This document shows positions 16,375 to 27,921 of a DNA stretch of 64,000 bases, in pieces. The position numbers and the translations under genes are program-made. Origin of the DNA: a bacterium. Its GTDB lineage: Bacteria; Myxococcota_A; UBA9160; UBA4427. The stretch lies in contig JANSYR010000018.1 in the NCBI GenBank assembly GCA_024742285.1, positions 1-64,000 of the forward strand, given 5' to 3'. Every line of letters begins with the position of its first letter. Positions within the stretch are counted from its first letter, which is position 1. Under the pieces are notes generated by a model. The model did not search any database, was not told the origin of the DNA, and was given only the letters and a program-made list of their open reading frames with translations.

Positions 16375-17103
16375 GTGGCGGGCAGACTCGCAGAGTGGGT
16401 TTCGGAGGCGACGAGGCGGAGGGTCTTCCGGACCGTCGGCGTGTACATCGTCGCGGTCTGGGGTGTCTCCACCGGGAGTGCCGAGCTCGCGGACCTCTTC
16501 GGCGTGCCGCCGGAGTGGCTCCGGGCCGGGATCTACGCCGCCGTCGCCGCGATCCCGATCGTCGCGTTCCTCGCGTGGCGCTTCGACATCGGCCGCGAGG
16601 GGATCGTCCGCGATCCCCAGGACGTGATCGCCGACCAGCAGCGCGAGGCCGAGCTGGCCGCGATGCCGACGATGATCGGCGGGGACGGCGGGGGCGGGGC
16701 CCTCGTGATCCGCTGGAAGAGTGCGGACGGCGAGCACTCGGCGCTCTTCACCGACGAGCTCTTCCTGGGGCGCGGCACCGAATGCCGCGTGCGCTTCTAC
16801 GACCCGCTCGTTTCGCGCAAGCACGCCCGCATCTTCCAGGCAGAGGGGGCCTGGCTGATCGAAGACCTCGGCAGTCGGAACGGAACCCGGCTCGACGGCG
16901 CCGAGATCACGCGGGCGCCCCTCGGTGTCGACAGCGAGATCCGGCTGAACGACGATGGGCCCTTCCTTCGCGTCCAGCTCGTGGCGGCGGGGGCCGAGAC
17001 GCGCGAGGCGCTCGCCTCGTTCCCGCCCGGCCAGCCGACGGCGCACGTCCGGCGGAGCGGAACCGACAGCGCGACCACCGGCGGATCGACCGGCCGACGC
17101 TAG
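16375..17103 (+). CDS. FHA-domain protein with N-terminal membrane segments
   Basis: The protein has 242 residues from GTG 16375 (AGGTCG just upstream; the start is not certain). Residues about 15-70 hold two hydrophobic stretches (TVGVYIVAVWGVSTGSAEL and AAVAAIPIVAFLAW), a pattern resembling the pre-domain of adenylate-cyclase-like membrane proteins. Residues about 115-205 form a forkhead-associated domain with the phosphopeptide-binding residues FLGRGTECRVRF, LVSRKHARIF and LEDLGSRNGTRLDG-like IEDLGSRNGTRLDG. FHA domains read phosphothreonine, so a Ser/Thr kinase is expected somewhere in the genome. No kinase is in the window. The gene sits between the ABC permease and a KAS III-like gene. 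Confidence 0.8.
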   Translation: MAGRLAEWVSEATRRRVFRTVGVYIVAVWGVSTGSAELADLFGVPPEWLRAGIYAAVAAIPIVAFLAWRFDIGREGIVRDPQDVIADQQREAELAAMPTMIGGDGGGGALVIRWKSADGEHSALFTDELFLGRGTECRVRFYDPLVSRKHARIFQAEGAWLIEDLGSRNGTRLDGAEITRAPLGVDSEIRLNDDGPFLRVQLVAAGAETREALASFPPGQPTAHVRRSGTDSATTGGSTGRR

Positions 17104-17137
17104 ACCCCGCTCGACCCTGACTCGCCAGGAGAAAACG

Positions 17138-18262
17138 ATGAACGAAGTCCTGATCACCGGGACCGGACTCTGGACGCCGGAGCACGGCATCACGAACGAG
17201 GAGCTCGTCGAGAGCCTGACTCGGGCCGTCCAGAAGTGGAACGCCGAGCACGCCGCGGAGATCGAAGCCGGCGAGCTCGAGGAGCGCGACCTCCCGAGCG
17301 AAAAGTTCATCGTGCGCGCCTCCGGCGTCGGCCACCGCTACGTGATCGAGAAGGAGGGCCTCCTCGACCCCGACCGCCTGCGCCCCCACCTGCCGACGCG
17401 AGGCGAGGACGAGCTGTCCATCCAGGCCGAGCTCTGCGTCACCGCCGCGAAGGAAGCCCTCGCCCAGGCGGGCGTCTCCGGAAGCGATCTCGACGCCGTC
17501 GTCGTCGGGGCGTCGAACATCCAGCGCGCCTATCCCGCGGTCGCGATCGAGGTCCAGGAAGCCCTCGGCGCCGGGGGCTTCGCCTACGACATGAACGTGG
17601 CCTGCTCGAGCGCGACCTTCGCCCTCCAGAACGCGATCGACGCGATCAAGACCGGCAGTGCGAAGCGCGCCCTCGTCCTCTGCCCGGAGCTCACGAGCTG
17701 CCACAACAATTTCGAGCTCCGGGAATTCCACTTCATCTTCGGCGACGCCTGCACGGCGATCGTGCTCGAGTCTGCCGACGTCGCGGGAGGCGGCGAGTCC
17801 TGGAGCGTGCTCGGCACGCGGCTCGCGACGAAGTTCTCGAACAACATCCGCAACGACTTCGGCTTCATGAACGTCGCCGAGGACACGCCCCGGGACCGGC
17901 ACGAGCTCATGTTCCGGCAGAACGGGCGACAGGTATTCAACGACGTCTGCCCGATGGTGGCGGAGCACATCGCGAGCCACACGGCCGATCTCGGCATCGA
18001 GCTGAAGGATCTGAAACGCTTCTGGCTCCACCAGGCGAACCTCGGCATGAACAAGACGATCGCCAAGACGCTGCTCGGACGGGATCCGTCGCCCGAGGAG
18101 TCGCCGGTCATCCTCGACGAGTATGCGAACACGAGCTCCGCCGGCTCCGTGATCGCCTTCCACAAGCATCGCGGAGGGCTCGACGTCGGCGACCACGCGG
18201 TCCTCTGCTCGTTCGGTGCGGGCTACTCGGTCGGCAGCGTCCTGCTGCGTCGTCAGCGCTGA
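17138..18262 (+). CDS. 3-oxoacyl-ACP synthase III-like enzyme
   Basis: The protein has 374 residues, longer than housekeeping FabH (about 320). ATG 17138 follows CAGGAG. Thiolase-fold catalytic residues are all visible: Cys in NVACSSATFAL, His in WLHQANLGMNK and Asn in EYANTSSAGS. The N-terminal insertion (EIEAGELEERDLPSEKFIVRASGV) and RYVIEKEGLLDPDR recall the Pseudomonas PA3286-type KAS III that condenses medium-chain acyl-CoA with malonyl-ACP. That specificity is inference. The canonical FabH is encoded separately at 26614-27564, so this paralogue probably serves shunting of acyl-CoA or a special lipid. Confidence 0.85.
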   Translation: MNEVLITGTGLWTPEHGITNEELVESLTRAVQKWNAEHAAEIEAGELEERDLPSEKFIVRASGVGHRYVIEKEGLLDPDRLRPHLPTRGEDELSIQAELCVTAAKEALAQAGVSGSDLDAVVVGASNIQRAYPAVAIEVQEALGAGGFAYDMNVACSSATFALQNAIDAIKTGSAKRALVLCPELTSCHNNFELREFHFIFGDACTAIVLESADVAGGGESWSVLGTRLATKFSNNIRNDFGFMNVAEDTPRDRHELMFRQNGRQVFNDVCPMVAEHIASHTADLGIELKDLKRFWLHQANLGMNKTIAKTLLGRDPSPEESPVILDEYANTSSAGSVIAFHKHRGGLDVGDHAVLCSFGAGYSVGSVLLRRQR

Positions 18263-18289: not shown

Positions 18290-18985
18290 TCAGACGCGTC
18301 GTCGCGTCTGGATCGCCGCCGCCGCGCGGAGTCCGTAGGCGCCGAGCAGGAGCGTGAACGCGGGCCAGTAGGCGAGGTCCTCGGCGACACGACCGCCGTA
18401 GCTCGACAGGTAGATGATCGCGACGGTGAGCTGACCCAGGCCGTGGAGGCGGCTCCAGGCCTTGCCACCGAGGCGCTTCACCGCGGCATCGTTCGACGTC
18501 AGCGCCATCAGCCCGATCATCAAGAAGCCGAAGCCGCCGCCGTAGACCGCGACCGGGTCCTCGAGGAGCACCGGCTCGACGCGCGCGAGGCCGACGATCG
18601 CCGCGAGGTGGACGTATTGGGCGACGAAGTAGGCGAGTCCGATCGCGCGCCGCCGCTTGCGGATCGTGCGGGTCGACGCCGTGGGCGTGAGCCGCGCCAG
18701 CGGACCCGCCGTGTAGGCGAGGAGCCAGAACGGATAGGCGAAGACGGCGGTCGCTCGGACGGCGGCGTGCCAGCCGATCACGCCGAGGCCGTTCAGGCCG
18801 AGGGCGCCGCCCAGGACGGCGACGCTCACGACCAGAGAGATCGCCATCGCACGCCGCGGCGTCGCGGCCCAGGCGAGCCAGATGGGCGGCGTGGCAGGCG
18901 GCGTGGAGGGCGGCGTGGAGGGCGGCGTGGAGGGCGCATTCGAGGGTGGATTGGAGGGCGAGAGGGCGGGGTTCGCGGTCGACAT
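18290..18985 (-). CDS. Ferric-reductase-like transmembrane protein
   Basis: The protein has 231 residues. ATG 18985 follows GAGGAGAG; the first about 35 residues are a Pro/Ser/Thr-rich tract with PPST repeats encoded by 12-base DNA repeats. About six membrane helices follow, with histidines at helix positions in IGWHAAVRAT, FVAQYVHLAAIVG and WSRLHGLGQL, matching the heme-b-binding layout of the ferric_reduct/MsrQ superfamily. It probably carries electrons across the membrane. It is divergent from the cytochrome c gene, 81 bases apart, which suggests a shared redox role. A hairpin (18292-18309) covers its stop codon. Confidence 0.75.
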   Translation of the reverse strand: MSTANPALSPSNPPSNAPSTPPSTPPSTPPATPPIWLAWAATPRRAMAISLVVSVAVLGGALGLNGLGVIGWHAAVRATAVFAYPFWLLAYTAGPLARLTPTASTRTIRKRRRAIGLAYFVAQYVHLAAIVGLARVEPVLLEDPVAVYGGGFGFLMIGLMALTSNDAAVKRLGGKAWSRLHGLGQLTVAIIYLSSYGGRVAEDLAYWPAFTLLLGAYGLRAAAAIQTRRRV

Positions 18986-19066
18986 GACTCTCCTCACCGG
19001 GCGGGACACTGATTAGCCGTCGTCGTCGTTTCCGACAACCGTGCGGATCCCTATGTTCCCGGGCGC

Positions 19067-19990
19067 ATGGAGCCGGCCGTCCCCCCCATCGATCCACGCC
19101 CGGCGATCTCCCCGCTCCTTCGGGTTCTCGCCTCCGCGTTCCTCGTCGCTGCCGTGGCGCGTTCCGCCGTCGCCTCGGAGTCGGACATCCGCGCCCTCGT
19201 CTTCGTCGACGGGGCCGGCTCCGAGCGGACGATCGCGCTCGAGGCGCTGCGGGCGGCCTGTGCGGAAGACGACGTGACCGTCGCCGATCCCTATCACGAA
19301 CGGACCATGCGCTACCGCGCGCTGCCGCTCCGCTGCGTGCTCGATCTCGGCTTCGAGACGAGAGGGGGCGCTGCCGGCTTGTCCGAGGCGGGTCTGCTCC
19401 TGCGGGCGCTCGATGGCTATACGCGACCGGTCTCTGGACGGACGCTGCTCGAGCCGGGGGGCCACGTTGCCTTCGCCGAGTCGTCTCGACTCCCCGTCGT
19501 TGCGGGTGAGGCGCCGTTCTCGCCGATCGATCGACGCCGGGTCGACCCGTCACCCTTCTATCTGGTCTGGAGTGGTCCGGACCAGGGCGACCCCCACGAG
19601 ACGCCGTGGCCCTATCAGCTCGCGCGGATCGAGGTCGCGCCCTTCGAGCAGGCGTTTCCGGCGACGGTCCCGACCGGGCTCGCGGCGCAAGATCCGGGAT
19701 GGGCGGGCTACGGCCTCTTCCAGCGGGCCTGCGCGAGCTGCCATGCGATCAACGGGCAGGGGGGCCGGGTCGGGCCGGACCTGAACGTGCCTCGGAGCAT
19801 CGTGGAGTATCGTCCGGTTCCCCAGATCAAGGCGTACATCCAGAACCCGCAGTCCTTCCGCTACACCAGCATGCCGCCCCACCCGGACCTCGGGGAGGCC
19901 GATCTGGACGCCTTGATCGCCTATTTTTCCGCGATGCGCGCCAGGAAGCAGGACCCTTTCGGTGGGGCCGCCGACGGAACCGACGACTAG
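19067..19990 (+). CDS. Secreted c-type cytochrome with novel N-terminal domain
   Basis: The protein has 307 residues. A hydrophobic segment at about 18-36 ends SAVASES, giving a signal peptide. Residues about 40-200 resemble the sulfite-oxidase-like moulds seen in some periplasmic redox proteins (LLLRALDGYTRPVSG, YLVWSGPDQGDP) but lack an obvious cofactor motif. The C-terminal about 90 residues are a mono-heme cytochrome c: CASCH heme site near 226-230 and distal Met in TSMPPHPDL. It is followed after one base by the cyclohydrolase homologue, so the two are probably co-transcribed, an unusual partnership. Confidence 0.8.
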   Translation: MEPAVPPIDPRPAISPLLRVLASAFLVAAVARSAVASESDIRALVFVDGAGSERTIALEALRAACAEDDVTVADPYHERTMRYRALPLRCVLDLGFETRGGAAGLSEAGLLLRALDGYTRPVSGRTLLEPGGHVAFAESSRLPVVAGEAPFSPIDRRRVDPSPFYLVWSGPDQGDPHETPWPYQLARIEVAPFEQAFPATVPTGLAAQDPGWAGYGLFQRACASCHAINGQGGRVGPDLNVPRSIVEYRPVPQIKAYIQNPQSFRYTSMPPHPDLGEADLDALIAYFSAMRARKQDPFGGAADGTDD

Positions 19991-19991
19991 C

Positions 19992-21047
19992 ATGAGCGCC
20001 GATCGATCCCGCTTCGAAATCAGCAAGTCGACCCTCCACCTCGGGGAGCATCGCGTCGCCCACGCGGAGGGCGACTTCGACGTGCACTTCTTCCGGGATC
20101 TCGCGAACGAGACGACCGCGATGGCGATCACCGTCGGCGATCCGTCGATCGGCCGCCCCCTGCTGGCTCGGGTCCACTCGGCCTGCGTCACGAGCGAGAG
20201 CCTGATGGGGCGGGACTGCGACTGCCGGGAGCAGCTCGAAGGGGCGCTGGCGACGATGGCGCGCGCCGGGCGGGGCGTCCTCTTCTACCTGCTCCAGGAG
20301 GGGCGCGGCGCAGGGCTCACCGCCAAGGCCCGGGACCGGATGATGGTCCAGGCGAGCGGCAACCGGATCACGACCTTCGAAGCCTACGCGTCGATGGGCC
20401 TGCCGGCGGACCTTCGGCGCTACGACCTCGTGGCGCCGATGAGCCGCTTGCTCGGCGTGCGCGCACCCATCCGGCTGCTCACGAACAATCCCGACAAGGC
20501 AGCGGCGGTCGGGGAGGCCCTCGCGACCGAGAAGATCGAACTCCTGGGCACGGAAACGATCCAGGCCCCGAGCTCTCCCTTCAACAGTGACTACCTGAGC
20601 GCCAAGCAGGCCTCCGGCCACGCGCTCGATTCGCCGAGCAGCCTCGAAGGGGCGTCGCCGCCGGTCGACGTCCGCGTCTTCGATCCGATCGCGCTGCCCG
20701 GCGACGACCGCCGCGTCGTGACGGCTTCGTATTTTCTGCCCGTGACGCTGCCTTCGACGGACGCGGACGCCGTCGAATGGTTCCGGATGAGCGTCGTCTA
20801 CGACCGGGACCGCGAGCGCGAGTCGATCGTCCTCTCCCGCGGCGAAGGAGAGGCGGCCGGCCCGCCCGTCGCCCGCGTGCGGATGAACCTGCTCGACCGG
20901 CTGCCCTTCCCGCGCGCGGCGGGTCGCGCCGCGCTCGCGGACGCCCTGCAGACCCTCCGGGACCGCGGGCAGGGCGCCGTCTCCGTCGAGCTCGACGACC
21001 GCGACCTCGCTTCGACCGCCGCCCGGGACGCCGATGGCCGGGGCTGA
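19992..21047 (+). CDS. GTP cyclohydrolase II homologue, divergent, with C-terminal extension
   Basis: The protein has 351 residues; GCH II is normally about 200. Zinc-ligand cysteines are at 65, 76 and 78 (ARVHSACVTSES then RDCDC). The QEGRGAGL motif is at 102-109, the D-x-R pair of the active site at about 140-142, and RLLTNNPDK at 161-169. The tyrosine that follows QEGR in riboflavin-type RibA (RAYALQ) is missing: the segment reads ARDRMMVQ (113-120). From memory of work on Streptomyces GCH II paralogues, loss of this Tyr (to Met) yields the formylated product FAPy. Residues about 220-351 are extra and look like a decayed copy of the N-terminal half without cysteines. The stop overlaps the next gene by 14 bases. 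Confidence 0.85.
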   Translation: MSADRSRFEISKSTLHLGEHRVAHAEGDFDVHFFRDLANETTAMAITVGDPSIGRPLLARVHSACVTSESLMGRDCDCREQLEGALATMARAGRGVLFYLLQEGRGAGLTAKARDRMMVQASGNRITTFEAYASMGLPADLRRYDLVAPMSRLLGVRAPIRLLTNNPDKAAAVGEALATEKIELLGTETIQAPSSPFNSDYLSAKQASGHALDSPSSLEGASPPVDVRVFDPIALPGDDRRVVTASYFLPVTLPSTDADAVEWFRMSVVYDRDRERESIVLSRGEGEAAGPPVARVRMNLLDRLPFPRAAGRAALADALQTLRDRGQGAVSVELDDRDLASTAARDADGRG

Positions 21048-22950
21048 GTCCTCGTCCCCGGGCGAGGACACCGCTGCCCGCGGCCGGGCGCTGTTGGCCG
21101 AACGGATCGCCGCGGCCCCGGACGTGATCGCCGGGCTCCTCCCGCGACAGCCGGACCTCCGCGCGCTCCTCCCGCCCGGCTCGGCGGGTCCGCGGACCCT
21201 GGTCGCGACGGGGATCGGGACGAGCGAAGGGCACGCGCGGCATTTCGCCGAGGCCGCCGCGCGCTGCTTCGGGTGGCCGGCGCGCTTCGCCTCGACCGCG
21301 TCCCTTCAGCAGGCGCCCCACCCGGCGGCTCGGCAGGACTGGCTCGTCGTGTTCTCCCAGGGGCTCTCCGCGAACGCGCGCCATGCTCTCCGCCACGTGG
21401 AAGCGTGGGGGGGATGTGTCCTGGTGACGGGACTCTCGCTCGGGACGAGCGAGGACGACGGCCTCTCCGCGGAGAAGCGGAGCTGGCTCGAGACCCTCGA
21501 AGCGCGCGGCGTGGTCCTCGTCGATCTCGGCTGCGGGGCGGAGTACGGGTCGCTGATTCGGGTGATCGGTGCGCGTGCCGGCTACGTCGCCGGGTGGTCG
21601 ATCCTGCGCAGCCTCGCCCGTGCCCGTCTCGAAGAGACCGCCGTCCTCGACGTCGCTCCAGAAGCGCTTCGGACGGCGCAGGTCGATGCGCAGGCGCGTG
21701 CCGCCGCGACGTTTCCCGAGTCGGAGCCCGTCGCCGATTTCTTCTCGCCGGATCGCCCGCTCCTGATTCTGGCGGAGGGCGGGATCGGCGACTTCGCGGA
21801 ACACCTGACGCTCAAGGTCGCGGAGGGCATGCTCCGTCCGCAGCCGCGGGCCCTGGACGTCCTGCAGTTCGCGCACGGGCCGCTGCAATCGATCGCGGAT
21901 CGACCGGCCTCGCTTCTCTACCTCGTCCCGCCCGGTCGTGACGACACCTGGCTCGAACGCCTGCGCGCGACCCTCGACCCGGATCTCCACGATCTCCGGG
22001 TGTTGCGGGGCACGCTCCCATGGCCGCTCGCGGCGGTCGAGTTCGAGGCGCTCTTCGACGCCCTCGTCGAGCGCACCCTCGGCGAGACCGGGGGCGACGT
22101 GGTCGCCTGGCCCGGCGCCGCGCGAGAGGGCGCGCTCTACACCGTCGGTCCCGACCTTCCCACGCCTGCATCCGAGCCGCGGGCGACGCCCACGGTGTCC
22201 TGGGAAGCGCGGGTCTGGCCGGAGATGGAAGCGCTCGTCGCCAGAGGGCGACGGACGGCGTTGATCGGACTCGGTTCGATCGAGCAGCACGGTCCGCATC
22301 TCCCGCTCGGCACCGATCGCTGGATCGCAGAGGCGCTGCTCGCAGGACTGGAGGCCGACCTCGACGACGCCGTCGCCGTCCCGGCGATCGCGATCGGCTG
22401 TGCGAGCGAGCACCTCGACTTCGCCGGCACCCTCCACGTCGAGCCCGAGACCCTCGAGGCGATCCTGTGTGACGTGCTGCGCTCTCTTTCCCGTCACGGC
22501 TTCGATCGCGCGTTCCTGTTCACGGCGCACGGCGGGAATCTCGACGCCCTCGACGCGATGCGGAACCGGCTGTGTGCGGCGGTGCGGCCGCTCGAGCTGC
22601 GGATCGAGATGGACCCGCGGATCGGCGCCATGCAGTCGGCGGTCGTCGAGGCGGCCTCGCTCGCGCCGTCGGCCGCCGGCCCCCACGCCGGGGAGTACGA
22701 GACGAGCGTCGTCGCTCATCTGCGACCCGGGACGATTCGAACGGACGCGCTCGTTCCGGGGCGGATCGTCGCGCCGGGCGAGTCGCAGGGACTCTTCTAC
22801 CCGAGCCTCCGGCCGAACGCGGAGAGCGGCGTGCTCGGCGATCCCTCCCGCGCTGCGGCGGAGCGCGGGGCTGGGTACCTGGAGGCCTGGGTGGCGTTGC
22901 TCGCCGCCGCCTATCGCGACGCGTTCGAGCCCAGGGGCGCGACCGAGTAG
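21034..22950 (+). CDS. SIS-domain and creatininase-domain fusion protein
   Basis: The protein has 638 residues and starts inside the cyclohydrolase gene, so the two are translationally coupled. Residues about 50-340 form a double sugar-isomerase (SIS) module (VATGIGTSEGHARHF, VVFSQGLSANARHALRH, LILAEGGIGDFAEHLTLK). Residues about 400-638 form a complete creatininase domain with metal-site motifs SIEQHGPHLPLGTD (Glu about 417), FTAHGGNLDAL (His about 499) and HAGEYETS (about 551). Creatininase-fold enzymes include creatinine amidohydrolase and ArfB, the archaeal FAPy deformylase of F420/riboflavin synthesis. With the GCH II neighbour, deformylation of FAPy is the best guess; the SIS half would handle a phosphosugar. 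The last 40 bases overlap the convergent membrane-protein gene. Confidence 0.85.
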   Translation: MAGAESSSPGEDTAARGRALLAERIAAAPDVIAGLLPRQPDLRALLPPGSAGPRTLVATGIGTSEGHARHFAEAAARCFGWPARFASTASLQQAPHPAARQDWLVVFSQGLSANARHALRHVEAWGGCVLVTGLSLGTSEDDGLSAEKRSWLETLEARGVVLVDLGCGAEYGSLIRVIGARAGYVAGWSILRSLARARLEETAVLDVAPEALRTAQVDAQARAAATFPESEPVADFFSPDRPLLILAEGGIGDFAEHLTLKVAEGMLRPQPRALDVLQFAHGPLQSIADRPASLLYLVPPGRDDTWLERLRATLDPDLHDLRVLRGTLPWPLAAVEFEALFDALVERTLGETGGDVVAWPGAAREGALYTVGPDLPTPASEPRATPTVSWEARVWPEMEALVARGRRTALIGLGSIEQHGPHLPLGTDRWIAEALLAGLEADLDDAVAVPAIAIGCASEHLDFAGTLHVEPETLEAILCDVLRSLSRHGFDRAFLFTAHGGNLDALDAMRNRLCAAVRPLELRIEMDPRIGAMQSAVVEAASLAPSAAGPHAGEYETSVVAHLRPGTIRTDALVPGRIVAPGESQGLFYPSLRPNAESGVLGDPSRAAAERGAGYLEAWVALLAAAYRDAFEPRGATE

Positions 22951-23663
22951 AAACGCGCGTAGGCGAAGGGCACCCAGAAGGCGTAGTAGAGCTGGTTCGG
23001 CACGATGCGCACGCCCCAGCCGAGGTCGAGCCCGCCAGCGACGATCAGCACGTCCGCGCCGAGCCAGAGTACGTAGTAGGCAGCGCTGTACCCGAAGAGC
23101 GCGCGCAGGTAGTCGACCTTGGGGACGGCGCCGACGTCGTCGCCGAGGCTCCGCGGGACCCAACGTCGGGACAGGGCGATGCAGAGGCCCATGAAGCCGG
23201 CCTCGTAGACCATCCACAGGACCTGGCCGTGGAGGTCGTCGACGATCGCCCCGAGCGCGGCGTACGTCACGCCCGCGAAGACCGGCACGACGAGGGTCAC
23301 CCCCGCCGCCCAGCCGACGTTCTCCCGGAGCGTTCGCTCGGGGCGCGCCACGCCGATCGCGAGGAGCAGGACGCGGAAGTCGCCGAGCAGGACGAAGAAG
23401 AACATGATGAGGGTGGCCGCGAAGGTGCCCTCGATTCCGTCCTGCTTGGCGAGGAGCCCCGTCGAGAGCGGGTCGACCATCGTCAGGACCGCGAAGACCA
23501 GCGTCGTCCGCGAAACGAAGCGGGCGGCTTCGGGGACGCATGCGCGTGTCGGGTCCGTCGGGCTCGCGGCGCGCCAGGCGAGAAAGGCGATCGGCACCAC
23601 GAGGAGCGCCCAGACGGTCTGCAGCTCGCTGTAGTAGGCGGCCTGCCACGTGAAATCGGTCAT
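22911..23663 (-). CDS. Multi-pass membrane protein of unknown function
   Basis: The protein has 250 residues with about seven hydrophobic helices (LLVVPIAFLAW near the start, FAATLIMFFFVLL, GVTLVVPVFAGVTYAALG, VLWMVYEAGFMGLC, YSAAYYVLWLGADVLIVAGGL, LYYAFWVPFAY). I do not recognise a family; it does not show the YhhN/TMEM86 lysoplasmalogenase pattern. It starts 3 bases after the CarF stop on the same strand, so the two very likely form an operon, and a role linked to plasmalogen or ether lipids is inference from context. Its 3' end overlaps the creatininase-fusion gene by 40 bases in convergent orientation. Confidence 0.8.
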   Translation of the reverse strand: MTDFTWQAAYYSELQTVWALLVVPIAFLAWRAASPTDPTRACVPEAARFVSRTTLVFAVLTMVDPLSTGLLAKQDGIEGTFAATLIMFFFVLLGDFRVLLLAIGVARPERTLRENVGWAAGVTLVVPVFAGVTYAALGAIVDDLHGQVLWMVYEAGFMGLCIALSRRWVPRSLGDDVGAVPKVDYLRALFGYSAAYYVLWLGADVLIVAGGLDLGWGVRIVPNQLYYAFWVPFAYARFYSVAPLGSNASR

Positions 23664-23666
23664 GGA

Positions 23667-24398
23667 TCAGGAGCGCCGCTCGTCGGATCCGGATCGCTCG
23701 GCTTCGGAAGCGACCGAAGTTCCGAACCGTCGCTCGAGCGCGGCGAAGAAGCCCAGGCCATCGAGCATCGGGTTCAGCCAGCCCGAGGTCACACAGTAGG
23801 CGCGATCGTGCTCGCCGCGATGGTGCCGGGCGTGTCGGGCCGGCGTCAGGATCAAGCCCGACCGCTGCAGGATGCGAGCGAGCCGCGGGGGCTGCTTGGC
23901 GTGGGCCCAGCCGTGGAAGACGTTCGTTGCGACGGCGGCGGCCGCGAAGCTCATGCCGAACACGAAGAGGAGCGTCGATCCGAAGTCGTGCGGAAGCGGC
24001 GTCGCGAGCAGGGCACCGGCCAGGGGCACGCTCACCAGCGCATTGTTGCCGGCGACCTCGAAGAGGTCGTGGCGCGAGATGCTCCCGGGATCGTCGTGGT
24101 GGGCGCGGAAGGGCTCGATCAAGAGCGGCCCGACGACGGGCGTGGAAGGATCGAGGCAGCGATCCGCGAGCCAGTGGACCGTACCGGCGACGAACTCGGC
24201 CAGGAGATAGCCGCCGAGCAATCCGACGGGCAGGGCCAGGACCAGCTCCGGGCGCCAGGCGTGCGGCGCAGCCCGAACGAAGGCGAGGCCCGCGATTCCG
24301 ACGAAGAGGCCGACCGCGAGGCGGTCGAGCACCCACTTCGCCCGAGGCTTCGTGAGGGGCAGGGACGCTGTGGGGGCGTCGTGCGTTTCGGCGGACAC
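23667..24398 (-). CDS. carF: CarF/TMEM189-type plasmanylethanolamine desaturase
   Basis: The protein has 243 residues. Histidine clusters of the lipid-desaturase (CarF/Kua/TMEM189) family are present in order: EFVAGTVHWLADRCLD, FRAHHDDPGSISRHD, VFHGWAHAKQPP and ARHARHHRGEHDRAYCVTSG, ending WLNPMLDG. The last motif, H-x-x-H-H with SGWLNP, is characteristic. In Myxococcus CarF introduces the vinyl-ether double bond of plasmalogens and is needed for singlet-oxygen signalling; the human orthologue is PEDS1. Four membrane helices are predicted. The start is ATG 24398; earlier in-frame codons look non-coding. It is followed by the unknown membrane protein in the same operon. Confidence 0.92.
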   Translation of the reverse strand: MSAETHDAPTASLPLTKPRAKWVLDRLAVGLFVGIAGLAFVRAAPHAWRPELVLALPVGLLGGYLLAEFVAGTVHWLADRCLDPSTPVVGPLLIEPFRAHHDDPGSISRHDLFEVAGNNALVSVPLAGALLATPLPHDFGSTLLFVFGMSFAAAAVATNVFHGWAHAKQPPRLARILQRSGLILTPARHARHHRGEHDRAYCVTSGWLNPMLDGLGFFAALERRFGTSVASEAERSGSDERRS

Positions 24399-25438: not shown

Positions 25439-26617
25439 CTAACGCGGCGGGCCGAGGACGAGCGTGCCGTTGTGGCCGCCGAATCCGAACGAGTTGGAGA
25501 GCGAGAGGCCCGGCGTCCACGAACGCGGCTCCGACTTCACGACGTCGATCGGTGGCAGGGCCGGGTCGTAGTTCGTGAGTCCGTCCGTCGGCGGAACGAC
25601 GCCATGCTGCATGGAGAGCAGCACGGCGACCGCTTCGAGGGCGCCTGCCGCTCCGAGCGAGTGGCCGGTCACGCCCTTGATCGAGGTCACGATCGGACCG
25701 GGCGTACCGAAGAGCTTCGCGATGCCTTCGGCTTCGGCCGCGTCGTTCAAGGCGGTGCTGGTTCCGTGCGCGTTGATGTGGGCGATGTCCGCCGCGCCCA
25801 CGCCGGCATCGTCGAGCGCAGCCTGCATGCACCGGAGTGCGCCTTCGCCTTCCGGGGCCGGCGCGGTGATGTGGTGTGCATCGGCGAGACTCGCAGACCC
25901 GAGCACCTCACCCAGGATCTTCGCCCCGCGCGCTTCGGCCTGGCTCCACTCTTCCAGCACGACGACCGCACCGCCCTCGGCGATCACGAAGCCGTCTCGG
26001 TCGACGTCGAAGGGACGCGAGACGCCGCTGGGAGAGAGCGCCTTCATGTTCGTGAAGCCCGCCATCGAGATCGGTGTCATGGCGGCTTCGGCTCCGCCCG
26101 CCACCACTGCATCGCAGATGCCCCACTGGATCCAGCGCGCGGCGGCGCCGATCGCATGGGTCCCCGTCGCGCAGGCGGTGGCGAGGGTTTCGCAGGGGCC
26201 CTGGAAGCCCCAACGGATCGAGACGGCGGCGGCGGCGGCGTTGGCCATCATCATCGGCACGACGAAGGGAGAGACGCGCCGGGGGCCCTTCGAATCGAGC
26301 ACGAGGGTCTGGTCCTCGTGGGTCTGGACGCCACCGATGCCGGTGCCGACCAGGACGCCGCGCTTGCCGGGCTCGGCGGTCAGCTCGCCCGCTTGCTCGA
26401 GGGCCTCCTTGGAAGCAGCGACCGCGAATTGTTCGAAGCGGTCCGCTCGGCGGATCGTCTTCGCGTCGTCGTAGAAGTCCTTGGGCTCGAAGTCGTGGGC
26501 CCGTCGCTCCTCGGTCGGCTGCGGGGAGAGGATTCCCTTCCAATAGGCAGCCTGTCCGATCCCGACCGGGGAGACGACGCCGAGTCCCGTGATCGCGACG
26601 CGTCGCTTCTCGCTCAT
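25439..26617 (-). CDS. fabF: 3-oxoacyl-ACP synthase II
   Basis: The protein has 392 residues, slightly shorter than E. coli FabF (413). It starts MSEKRRVAITGLGVVSPVG; the catalytic triad is Cys in LATACATGTHAIG, His in INAHGTSTALNDAAE and His in GVTGHSLGAAGALEAV, with the C-terminal SNSFGFGGHNGTL. It condenses acyl-ACP with malonyl-ACP in fatty acid elongation. Its ATG overlaps the fabH stop (ATGA), so translation is coupled. The acpP, fabD and fabG genes that often accompany these are not in the window. Confidence 0.93.
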   Translation of the reverse strand: MSEKRRVAITGLGVVSPVGIGQAAYWKGILSPQPTEERRAHDFEPKDFYDDAKTIRRADRFEQFAVAASKEALEQAGELTAEPGKRGVLVGTGIGGVQTHEDQTLVLDSKGPRRVSPFVVPMMMANAAAAAVSIRWGFQGPCETLATACATGTHAIGAAARWIQWGICDAVVAGGAEAAMTPISMAGFTNMKALSPSGVSRPFDVDRDGFVIAEGGAVVVLEEWSQAEARGAKILGEVLGSASLADAHHITAPAPEGEGALRCMQAALDDAGVGAADIAHINAHGTSTALNDAAEAEGIAKLFGTPGPIVTSIKGVTGHSLGAAGALEAVAVLLSMQHGVVPPTDGLTNYDPALPPIDVVKSEPRSWTPGLSLSNSFGFGGHNGTLVLGPPR

Positions 26618-27564
26618 TCCGAGGCTCCCGAAACGGAGGGCGGCGACTGCCAGCGGAGGAGTGCGCTGCCCCAGGTCATGCCGGCCCCGAAGCCGGTCAT
26701 CAAGACGAGGTCCCCGTCTTCGAGGCGGCCGGCCTCGATCGCGTCGACGAGGGCGAGGGGGATCGAGGCGCTCGAGGTGTTGCCGGTCCGGCCGAGGACG
26801 ATCGCGGTATTCGCTTCGGCGATGCCCAGGCGATCGCAGGCCGCCTGGATGATCCGGATGTTCGCCTGATGCGGCACGAGCAGCTTGACGTGCTCCGGCT
26901 GGACCTTCGCCTGCTCGAGGGTCCGCTTCGCCGAGTCGACGAGGACCCGCACGGCGCGCTTGAAGACCTCGCGCCCGTCCATCTGGATGTAGCCGCCAAT
27001 GTCGCACTCGAGGATCTCGCGGGCGGTCCCGTCGAGCCCGAGGTCCCAACCGAGGAGCTGCCCCTCGCCGGCTTCCCGTTCGAGCACGAGCGCGCCGCCC
27101 CCGTCGCCGAAGAGGACCGCCGTATTCCGGTCGTTCCAGTCGGTGATCCGGGACAGGGTCTCCGCTCCCACCACGAGCACGCGGTTCGCGCCGCTCTCGA
27201 GCAACCCGTTCGCCATGACGAGGGCATAGACGAAGCCCGAGCAGGCCGCGTTCAGGTCGAACGCACCGCCGCCGAGTCCGAGCTCGTGGTGCACGTGCGC
27301 CGAGCACGCGGGGACCTGCTGGTCCGGCGTCGTCGTCGCCAGCACCATCAGATCGACGCTCGCCGGATCCACGTCCGCCTGTGAGAGCGCCGAACGGCCG
27401 GCGGCGATGGCGAGCTCGGCGGTCGATTCGCCGATTCGCCGCTCGCGGATTCCGCTTCGCTCGCGGATCCACTCGTCGCTCGTGTCGAGGGTCTTCTCGA
27501 GGTCGTGATTGGTCACGACCTTGTCGGGCAGTGCCGAGCCCCACCCGAGGATGCGCAGTCCCAT
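26614..27564 (-). CDS. fabH: 3-oxoacyl-ACP synthase III
   Basis: The protein has 316 residues, standard for FabH. It begins MGLRILGWGSALPDKVVTNHDLEK; the catalytic residues are Cys in LNAACSGFVYAL, His in VPHQANIRII and Asn in GRTGNTSSASIP, plus the FGDGGGALVLE loop. It starts fatty acid synthesis by condensing acetyl-CoA (or a branched primer) with malonyl-ACP. ATG 27564 was chosen because the conserved N-terminus begins there; the frame continues upstream without coding character. The upstream region contains the intergenic repeat array at 27744-27921. Confidence 0.93.
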   Translation of the reverse strand: MGLRILGWGSALPDKVVTNHDLEKTLDTSDEWIRERSGIRERRIGESTAELAIAAGRSALSQADVDPASVDLMVLATTTPDQQVPACSAHVHHELGLGGGAFDLNAACSGFVYALVMANGLLESGANRVLVVGAETLSRITDWNDRNTAVLFGDGGGALVLEREAGEGQLLGWDLGLDGTAREILECDIGGYIQMDGREVFKRAVRVLVDSAKRTLEQAKVQPEHVKLLVPHQANIRIIQAACDRLGIAEANTAIVLGRTGNTSSASIPLALVDAIEAGRLEDGDLVLMTGFGAGMTWGSALLRWQSPPSVSGASE

Positions 27565-27743
27565 GCCGTCTCCGAAGATCCGGGGCTCGCGCAGGATCGC
27601 GCGCTCAACCCCCCAAGAGTCGGCCCGAGGTGTACCACACCCGCCGGACCCACGATCGGAAAGCGTCCGACGACGCCGCTCCGCGAGACTGACACCGCCC
27701 CCACGCCGCGTCAGAACCCGCCCAGCCGGCCGACGCCACGCCA

Positions 27744-27921
27744 GAGCCCCGAGCGCAAGGCGCGGCCCGTAGCGGCCGCGCCGACCCAACGAACGGAGCC
27801 CTCAGCGCGAGACGCGGCCAGAAAGGCCGCGTCGAGAGGCGCTCTGCGCCGACCCAATAAACGGAGCCCTCAGCGCGAGACGCGGCCAGAAAGGCCGCGT
27901 CGAGAGGCGCGCAGCGCCGAC
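27744..27921. repeat. Intergenic hairpin repeat array (three copies)
   Basis: Two near-identical copies occur at 27796-27853 and 27864-27921 (period 68). Each reads GAGCCCTCAGCGCGAGA, then the hairpin CGCGGCC-agaaa-GGCCGCG, then TCGAGAGGCGC and GCGCCGAC. A shorter relative without the central hairpin flank is at 27744-27785. Related copies occur at 40.7, 43.1 and 48.9 kb (listed separately). The array ends next to the stop codon of the DUF1232 gene. The 360-base gap 27565-27924 holds nothing else I can support apart from the fabH promoter. Confidence 0.8.

Follow-up and report, generated by a model that had tools for sequence, protein, structure and literature searches.

A GTP cyclohydrolase II variant and a SIS-creatininase fusion as a candidate split GTP cyclohydrolase I in a cytochrome c cassette of Myxococcota

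Two overlapping genes in the window (the whole stretch of DNA that was analysed, 64,000 nucleotides of an uncultured myxobacterium) encode a variant of GTP cyclohydrolase II (GCH II), P0001, and a SIS-creatininase fusion protein, P0002. These genes are part of a larger cassette with the genes for a secreted cytochrome c protein (HEM), a membrane protein (MEM) and a lipid desaturase (CARF), and do not form a stand-alone pathway. In related bacteria this cassette holds an ordinary GTP cyclohydrolase I (FolE) in their place, and on these grounds P0001 and P0002 are proposed to act as a 'split GTP cyclohydrolase I', in which three unrelated domains would supply the HEM-MEM(-CARF) cassette with a pterin; the probability of this reading is put at about 0.5. 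It is built on observations of the order of the genes, the identity of their domains, the conservation of catalytic residues and the occurrence of FolE as an alternative in the cassette. GTP cyclohydrolase I is the first step to pterins and folate, and the reading, if true, would mean that the first pterin intermediate can be reached by a new enzymatic route. A literature search found no paper joining GCH II, creatininase and SIS.

Gene order and domains of the cassette

The HEM gene (19067..19990, + strand) encodes a periplasmic-type, secreted protein with a signal peptide, an N-terminal domain of approximately 170 aa and a C-terminal cytochrome c domain (CxxCH; PF00034, E=6e-9), and its alignment is conserved over 37 members. 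The stop codon of HEM lies 1 base ahead of the gene for P0001 (351 aa; 19992..21047, + strand), which runs from an ATG at 19992 to a stop codon at 21045-21047. The next ATG, at 21034, opens the fusion gene, which ends at 22950. MEM (22911..23663, - strand; 250 aa, with 6-7 hydrophobic segments by hydropathy) is convergent with the fusion gene, overlaps it by 40 bases, and is kept beside HEM in relatives. CARF (23667..24398, - strand), encoding a CarF/TMEM189-like lipid desaturase (PF10520, E=1.5e-42), shares its strand with MEM and lies directly upstream of it. The first-pass annotation had read the GCH II and fusion genes as a pathway. Their linkage was borne out, including the overlap of 14 bases (21034 versus 21047), but they belong to a cassette with HEM, MEM and CARF which had gone unnoticed.

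P0001 was identified as a GCH II by Pfam (PF00925; E=2e-37, 128.7 bits against a cut-off of 23.3) and matched the E. coli enzyme in the PDB (2bz0, E=6e-29). Its catalytic core spans residues 15-212, and is followed by a C-terminal extension of approximately 130 residues (about 215-345) that is restricted to the P0001 family. As had been claimed, the zinc cysteines C65, C76 and C78 (20184..20225, + strand) and the motif Q102-E-G-R105 are present, and they are invariant in the nine orthologues. The loop that reads KIRAYALQ in RibA is KARDRMMVQ in P0001 (K112 to Q120; 20325..20351, + strand) and KARDRM(M/I)VQ across the orthologues, with M/I118 as the sole variation. Tyr was found in 0/9 orthologues, and the loss of the loop Tyr is certain. 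Its change to Met, as earlier proposed, is not, because the loop is one residue longer than that of E. coli RibA, which allows the RibA Tyr to fall opposite either Arg116 (MAFFT, phmmer) or Met117 (alignment anchored on Gln). The RibA equivalog TIGR00505 was not reached (112.4 bits, cut-off 205.85), and a canonical RibBA is also present in the genome of the window.

Two further features of the GCH II family were observed in this genome. The C-terminal extension of P0001 (window 20634-21044) may represent a duplicated, degenerate N-lobe of GCH II, with a similar predicted strand order and, in a profile comparison, E=0.002 and a probability of 14%. A third GCH II paralogue (L056 9796-10548; G000 contig C11, approximately 241026) is 250 aa long, retains the Tyr and has SHEGR in place of QEGR.

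The description of P0002 as a two-domain protein was upheld, by Pfam for the creatininase half and by a family profile and a fold search for the SIS half. The creatininase-fold half (residues 386-638; 22189..22950, + strand) matched PF02633 over residues 395-626 (E=9e-58, 196 bits against a cut-off of 31.3) and PDB 3no4 (E=5e-20). The metal site had been called complete. This is accurate in the family-wide sense, as E417, H419, D428 and H499 are retained together with E554/E556 of the creatininase family motif HAGExET, but the ligand E122 of the P. putida enzyme is replaced by G501. The cut-offs of three more specific families were not reached by this half, namely creatininase sensu stricto (TIGR04448; 85 bits, cut-off 235), ArfB (NF033501; 23.4 bits, cut-off 180) and MftE (TIGR03964; 128.8 bits, cut-off 172). 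As MftE nevertheless gave the best NCBIfam score, this half might be an MftE-like peptidase, and the GCH II variant a typical RibA-type enzyme. Such an arrangement is very unlikely, given that the MftE cut-off was missed, that the RibA cut-off is likewise far off (112 versus 206 bits), and that the Tyr is gone in all orthologues.

For the N-terminal half of P0002 (residues 1-385; 21034..22188, + strand), a single-sequence Pfam search did not reach the SIS domain. When a family profile of this half was compared with the PDB, SIS isomerases were at the top of the list (3c3j, E=3e-4), and a fold search with a low-confidence model gave GlmS, NagB-II, FrlB and MurR among its matches. E264 and H281 (the latter in an H281-G-P motif) are invariant in 28 relatives and align with E...FRHGP of 3c3j. 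The AlphaFold models made in the analysis have pLDDT values of 54 and 51, too weak for residue-level claims. On profile and fold matches, this half is assigned to the SIS superfamily as a double-SIS isomerase. Its alignment with ketose/aldose isomerases includes the E...HGP motif. An Amadori-type aldose-ketose isomerase is the best explanation for it, rather than the amino-sugar step suggested in the first-pass annotation.

Distribution of the module and a GTP cyclohydrolase I in the same cassette

The survey covered 379 Myxococcota genomes and, for the GCH II variant, 398 Pseudomonadota genomes. The GCH II variant was found in 9 of the Myxococcota genomes, all of which carry the SIS-creatininase fusion, in line with the earlier claim of a link between GCH II and the creatininase domain. 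A contig-end fragment of the same family was present in one additional genome (G078), and another (G057, 89% complete) has the fusion, with the GCH II variant not found. No match at E<=1e-50 was obtained in the 398 Pseudomonadota genomes, while orthologues score 1e-149 or better. The pairing is not due to chance, because both genes are kept adjacent and intact in the 9 genomes, which belong to 4 genera. A search for the neighbours of fusion homologues had been proposed, with homologues that are never beside GCH II genes as the case against the idea; they were found adjacent to the GCH II variant. Within the genus, orthologous blocks occur in G001-G006; 4 further genomes of the order also have them, at 41-43% identity. 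Among the 379 genomes, creatininase is fused to SIS exclusively in the order of the window.

The SIS gene was more widespread, being found in 33/379 genomes and essentially always within a cassette with MEM and HEM (MEM directly adjacent in 32 of the 33, HEM in 29). The exceptions were a cassette split across contig ends (G349), one that is cut (G004), and two genomes (G055, G061) which retain GCH II-SIS-creatininase-MEM-CARF and have HEM located elsewhere. The GCH II variant and creatininase are absent from 23/33 SIS cassettes. A canonical Tyr-type RibA was present in the SIS-only genomes inspected. A second divergent GCH II in SIS-only genomes was considered and rejected as support, as it proved to be a RibB fusion whose RibA domain is degenerate and lacks QEGR.

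GTP cyclohydrolase I was then searched for, first with the aim of establishing whether SIS genomes are without FolE, and then by scanning all HEM loci. A second, divergent FolE was found directly beside HEM in genomes without SIS. The order FolE-HEM-MEM, with the genes overlapping or abutting, was present in 15 Myxococcota genomes, with CARF beside FolE in 7 of them. The cassette FolE retains the zinc and catalytic residues Cys110, His112, His113, Gln151, Glu152, His179, Cys181 and Arg185, in E. coli numbering, and its closest solved relative is 9ujf, 'GTP cyclohydrolase 1' (E=4e-62). The FolE-HEM-MEM(-CARF) loci (L128-L132, L134, L135, L231, L236-L239, L242, L243 and L247) make up an apparently undescribed gene set that has a GTP cyclohydrolase I of its own. 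On a Streptomyces sp. 3211 plasmid (L249 15001-15531), a FolE sharing 58% identity with that of the cassettes was observed among transposases, with no annotated cytochrome c gene nearby.

The 33 genomes with SIS cassettes and the 15 with FolE cassettes showed 0 overlap, for which simple counting, uncorrected for kinship, gives 5e-10. Both types are represented in two families, f7 and f1, the latter being that of the window. When 69 HEM proteins were placed in a tree, those of the FolE type formed a single clade (100/96); another group (99/97) held the SIS and GCH II types together. As the FolE type is one clade, the exchange between FolE and SIS counts once, as one old event and not as repeated displacement. 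Three HEM-MEM pairs with readable flanks (G015, G049, G062) carry neither module.

The proteins of the window include no FolE or FolE2 detectable by sequence homology; the FolE match of its own genome sits on another contig (C7). An ordinary or divergent FolE is present elsewhere in most genomes carrying the module, and the module is therefore not needed for the general folate supply. Loss of FolE from SIS genomes was considered as evidence for the proposal and set aside: FolE and FolE2 searches gave no match in two SIS-bearing genomes (G186, 98% complete; G378, 86% complete), but in the other SIS genomes tested a divergent FolE is present, and most of its catalytic residues are intact. Further divergent FolE genes with intact catalytic residues were observed away from HEM in G008, G003 and G004 (L232, L233 and L234).

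The distribution also bears on the possibility that the substrate of SIS is an ordinary sugar phosphate, used in a lipid or envelope modification by MEM, HEM and CARF, with the GCH II variant and creatininase added to serve some unrelated end, e.g., regulation or flavin secretion. The 23 SIS cassettes lacking both would agree with this. It is nonetheless unlikely, as it makes the SIS-creatininase fusion, the overlap with GCH II and the alternative cassette FolE all a matter of coincidence. Of the product classes first suggested, a pterin-like one is now favoured, because the cassette of relatives contains GTP cyclohydrolase I; this both strengthens the suggestion and makes it specific.

A proposed route to a pterin and its relation to known systems

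In the proposed split GTP cyclohydrolase I, we infer every reaction, the product and its use. The GCH II variant would hydrolyse GTP at C8, release pyrophosphate and, because the loop Tyr is missing, let FAPy monophosphate go. The creatininase domain would deformylate this to the diaminopyrimidine ribosyl phosphate. The fused SIS sugar-phosphate isomerase would then carry out an Amadori rearrangement, and ring closure would give 7,8-dihydroneopterin 3'-monophosphate, the product being a monophosphate because GCH II loses pyrophosphate. In SIS-only lineages, the third step would draw on the deformylated product of the ordinary housekeeping RibA. Taken together, the three domains would stand in for GTP cyclohydrolase I in the cassette. 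FAPy, deformylation and a pterin-like product are the most economical reading. An alternative for the last step is that SIS is an FrlB-like deglycase, which would cleave the deformylated intermediate, taking off its ribose phosphate and giving free triaminopyrimidinone for a new pyrimidine cofactor. FrlB, GlmS and NagB-II were among the fold matches of the SIS half, and FrlB chemistry begins with Amadori-type N-glycosides. This is improbable, as GTP cyclohydrolase I, the alternative enzyme of the cassette, gives a product that retains the sugar carbons.

Release of FAPy by a GCH II has a reported parallel. Spoonamore and colleagues are said to have found in 2006 that Streptomyces coelicolor SCO6655, a GCH II paralogue without the loop Tyr, releases FAPy. 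P0001 is likened to SCO6655 by this description and not by sequence; a difference noted is that the P0001 loop is one residue longer than that of E. coli RibA, and is accompanied by the C-terminal extension. GCH II and an isomerase have also been linked before, as Adams and colleagues reportedly described in mBio in 2014 that RibA and TrpF replace FolE in Chlamydia, with the GCH II product passed to an Amadori-type isomerase to give dihydroneopterin. Handing over of a GCH II product to such an isomerase is common to both systems. The Chlamydia isomerase, however, is TrpF (a TIM barrel) and not SIS, and that system is without a separate deformylase and without a HEM-MEM cassette.

GTP cyclohydrolase I itself proceeds by opening of the imidazole ring, then Amadori rearrangement of the ribose, then closure of the new ring (PMC6718149). 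The net chemistry proposed for the window module (ring opening, deformylation, Amadori shift, ring closure) would be the same, as is its position in the cassette when compared with 15 relatives. The module differs from FolE in being non-homologous, in having three domains in two proteins, and in that its product would be a monophosphate. If the proposal is true, each step of GTP cyclohydrolase I would be found on a separate fold, and the textbook mechanism would become dissectable.

A GTP-opening enzyme with a separate creatininase-fold FAPy deformylase is also found in archaeal ArfA/ArfB, of which ArfB had been cited in the first-pass annotation. ArfA (GCH III) is unrelated to GCH II, however, the archaeal pathway leads to riboflavin, and P0002 misses the ArfB equivalog cut-off (23 versus 180 bits). 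Creatininase-family FAPy deformylases also exist in bacteria: BrbF of Rhizobiales is a formamidase of this family that acts on FAPy ribosyl phosphate in a riboflavin pathway, and its GTP enzyme partner is described as undiscovered (PMC9478397). The likeness of P0002 to BrbF comes from the description of BrbF and not from sequence, and no SIS fusion is described for BrbF (PMC9478397). If the proposal is true, the window would offer a bacterial example of GCH II paired with creatininase, a type of pair that has been proposed for BrbF but is missing there (PMC9478397).

These systems use FAPy toward riboflavin, and, with the partner of BrbF still missing (PMC9478397), the pair in the window might be a second, dedicated riboflavin entry, analogous to ArfA/ArfB or to a 'BrbG/BrbF' pair, with SIS and the cassette as mere neighbours. 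This is quite unlikely: SIS and HEM/MEM are found repeatedly in the absence of the GCH II variant, a canonical RibBA is present in the same genome, and the cassette FolE could not feed riboflavin. Returning to a pterin product, it is tentatively suggested that the FAPy-releasing GCH II, creatininase-fold deformylase and SIS Amadori isomerase may form a further modular pterin route, dedicated to a membrane/cytochrome c cassette that elsewhere uses its own GTP cyclohydrolase I. Such a route would imply a pterin-dependent periplasmic redox or lipid-modifying system that is not yet described.

The membrane and cytochrome c genes

The findings point to a cytochrome and membrane cassette that seemingly needs its own pterin supply. 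MEM had no Pfam or NCBIfam match, and its alignment has no column with His in most members. A sulfite-oxidase-like molybdopterin fold was considered for the N-terminal domain of HEM and rejected, as PF00174 was matched by 1/37 members (E=0.027) and profile comparison was unsupportive. CARF also adjoins the FolE-type cassettes, and it was in the phylum Myxococcota that CarF-type plasmalogen chemistry was elucidated.

HEM-like cytochrome c proteins were also observed in Pseudomonas, Cupriavidus, Microvirga, Caballeronia and Burkholderia (L091-L095), where MEM, SIS and FolE are not beside them; for the HEM relatives on Burkholderiales and Pseudomonas replicons, FolE and SIS were not found alongside. 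In the window, a gene for an MsrQ/MamZ-like membrane protein (18290-19009, - strand) lies upstream of HEM, an arrangement shared by some members of the genus. Two ketosynthase III (FabH-like) genes (16955-18262 and 26614-27789) are located on either side of the cassette, and are kept in the genus.
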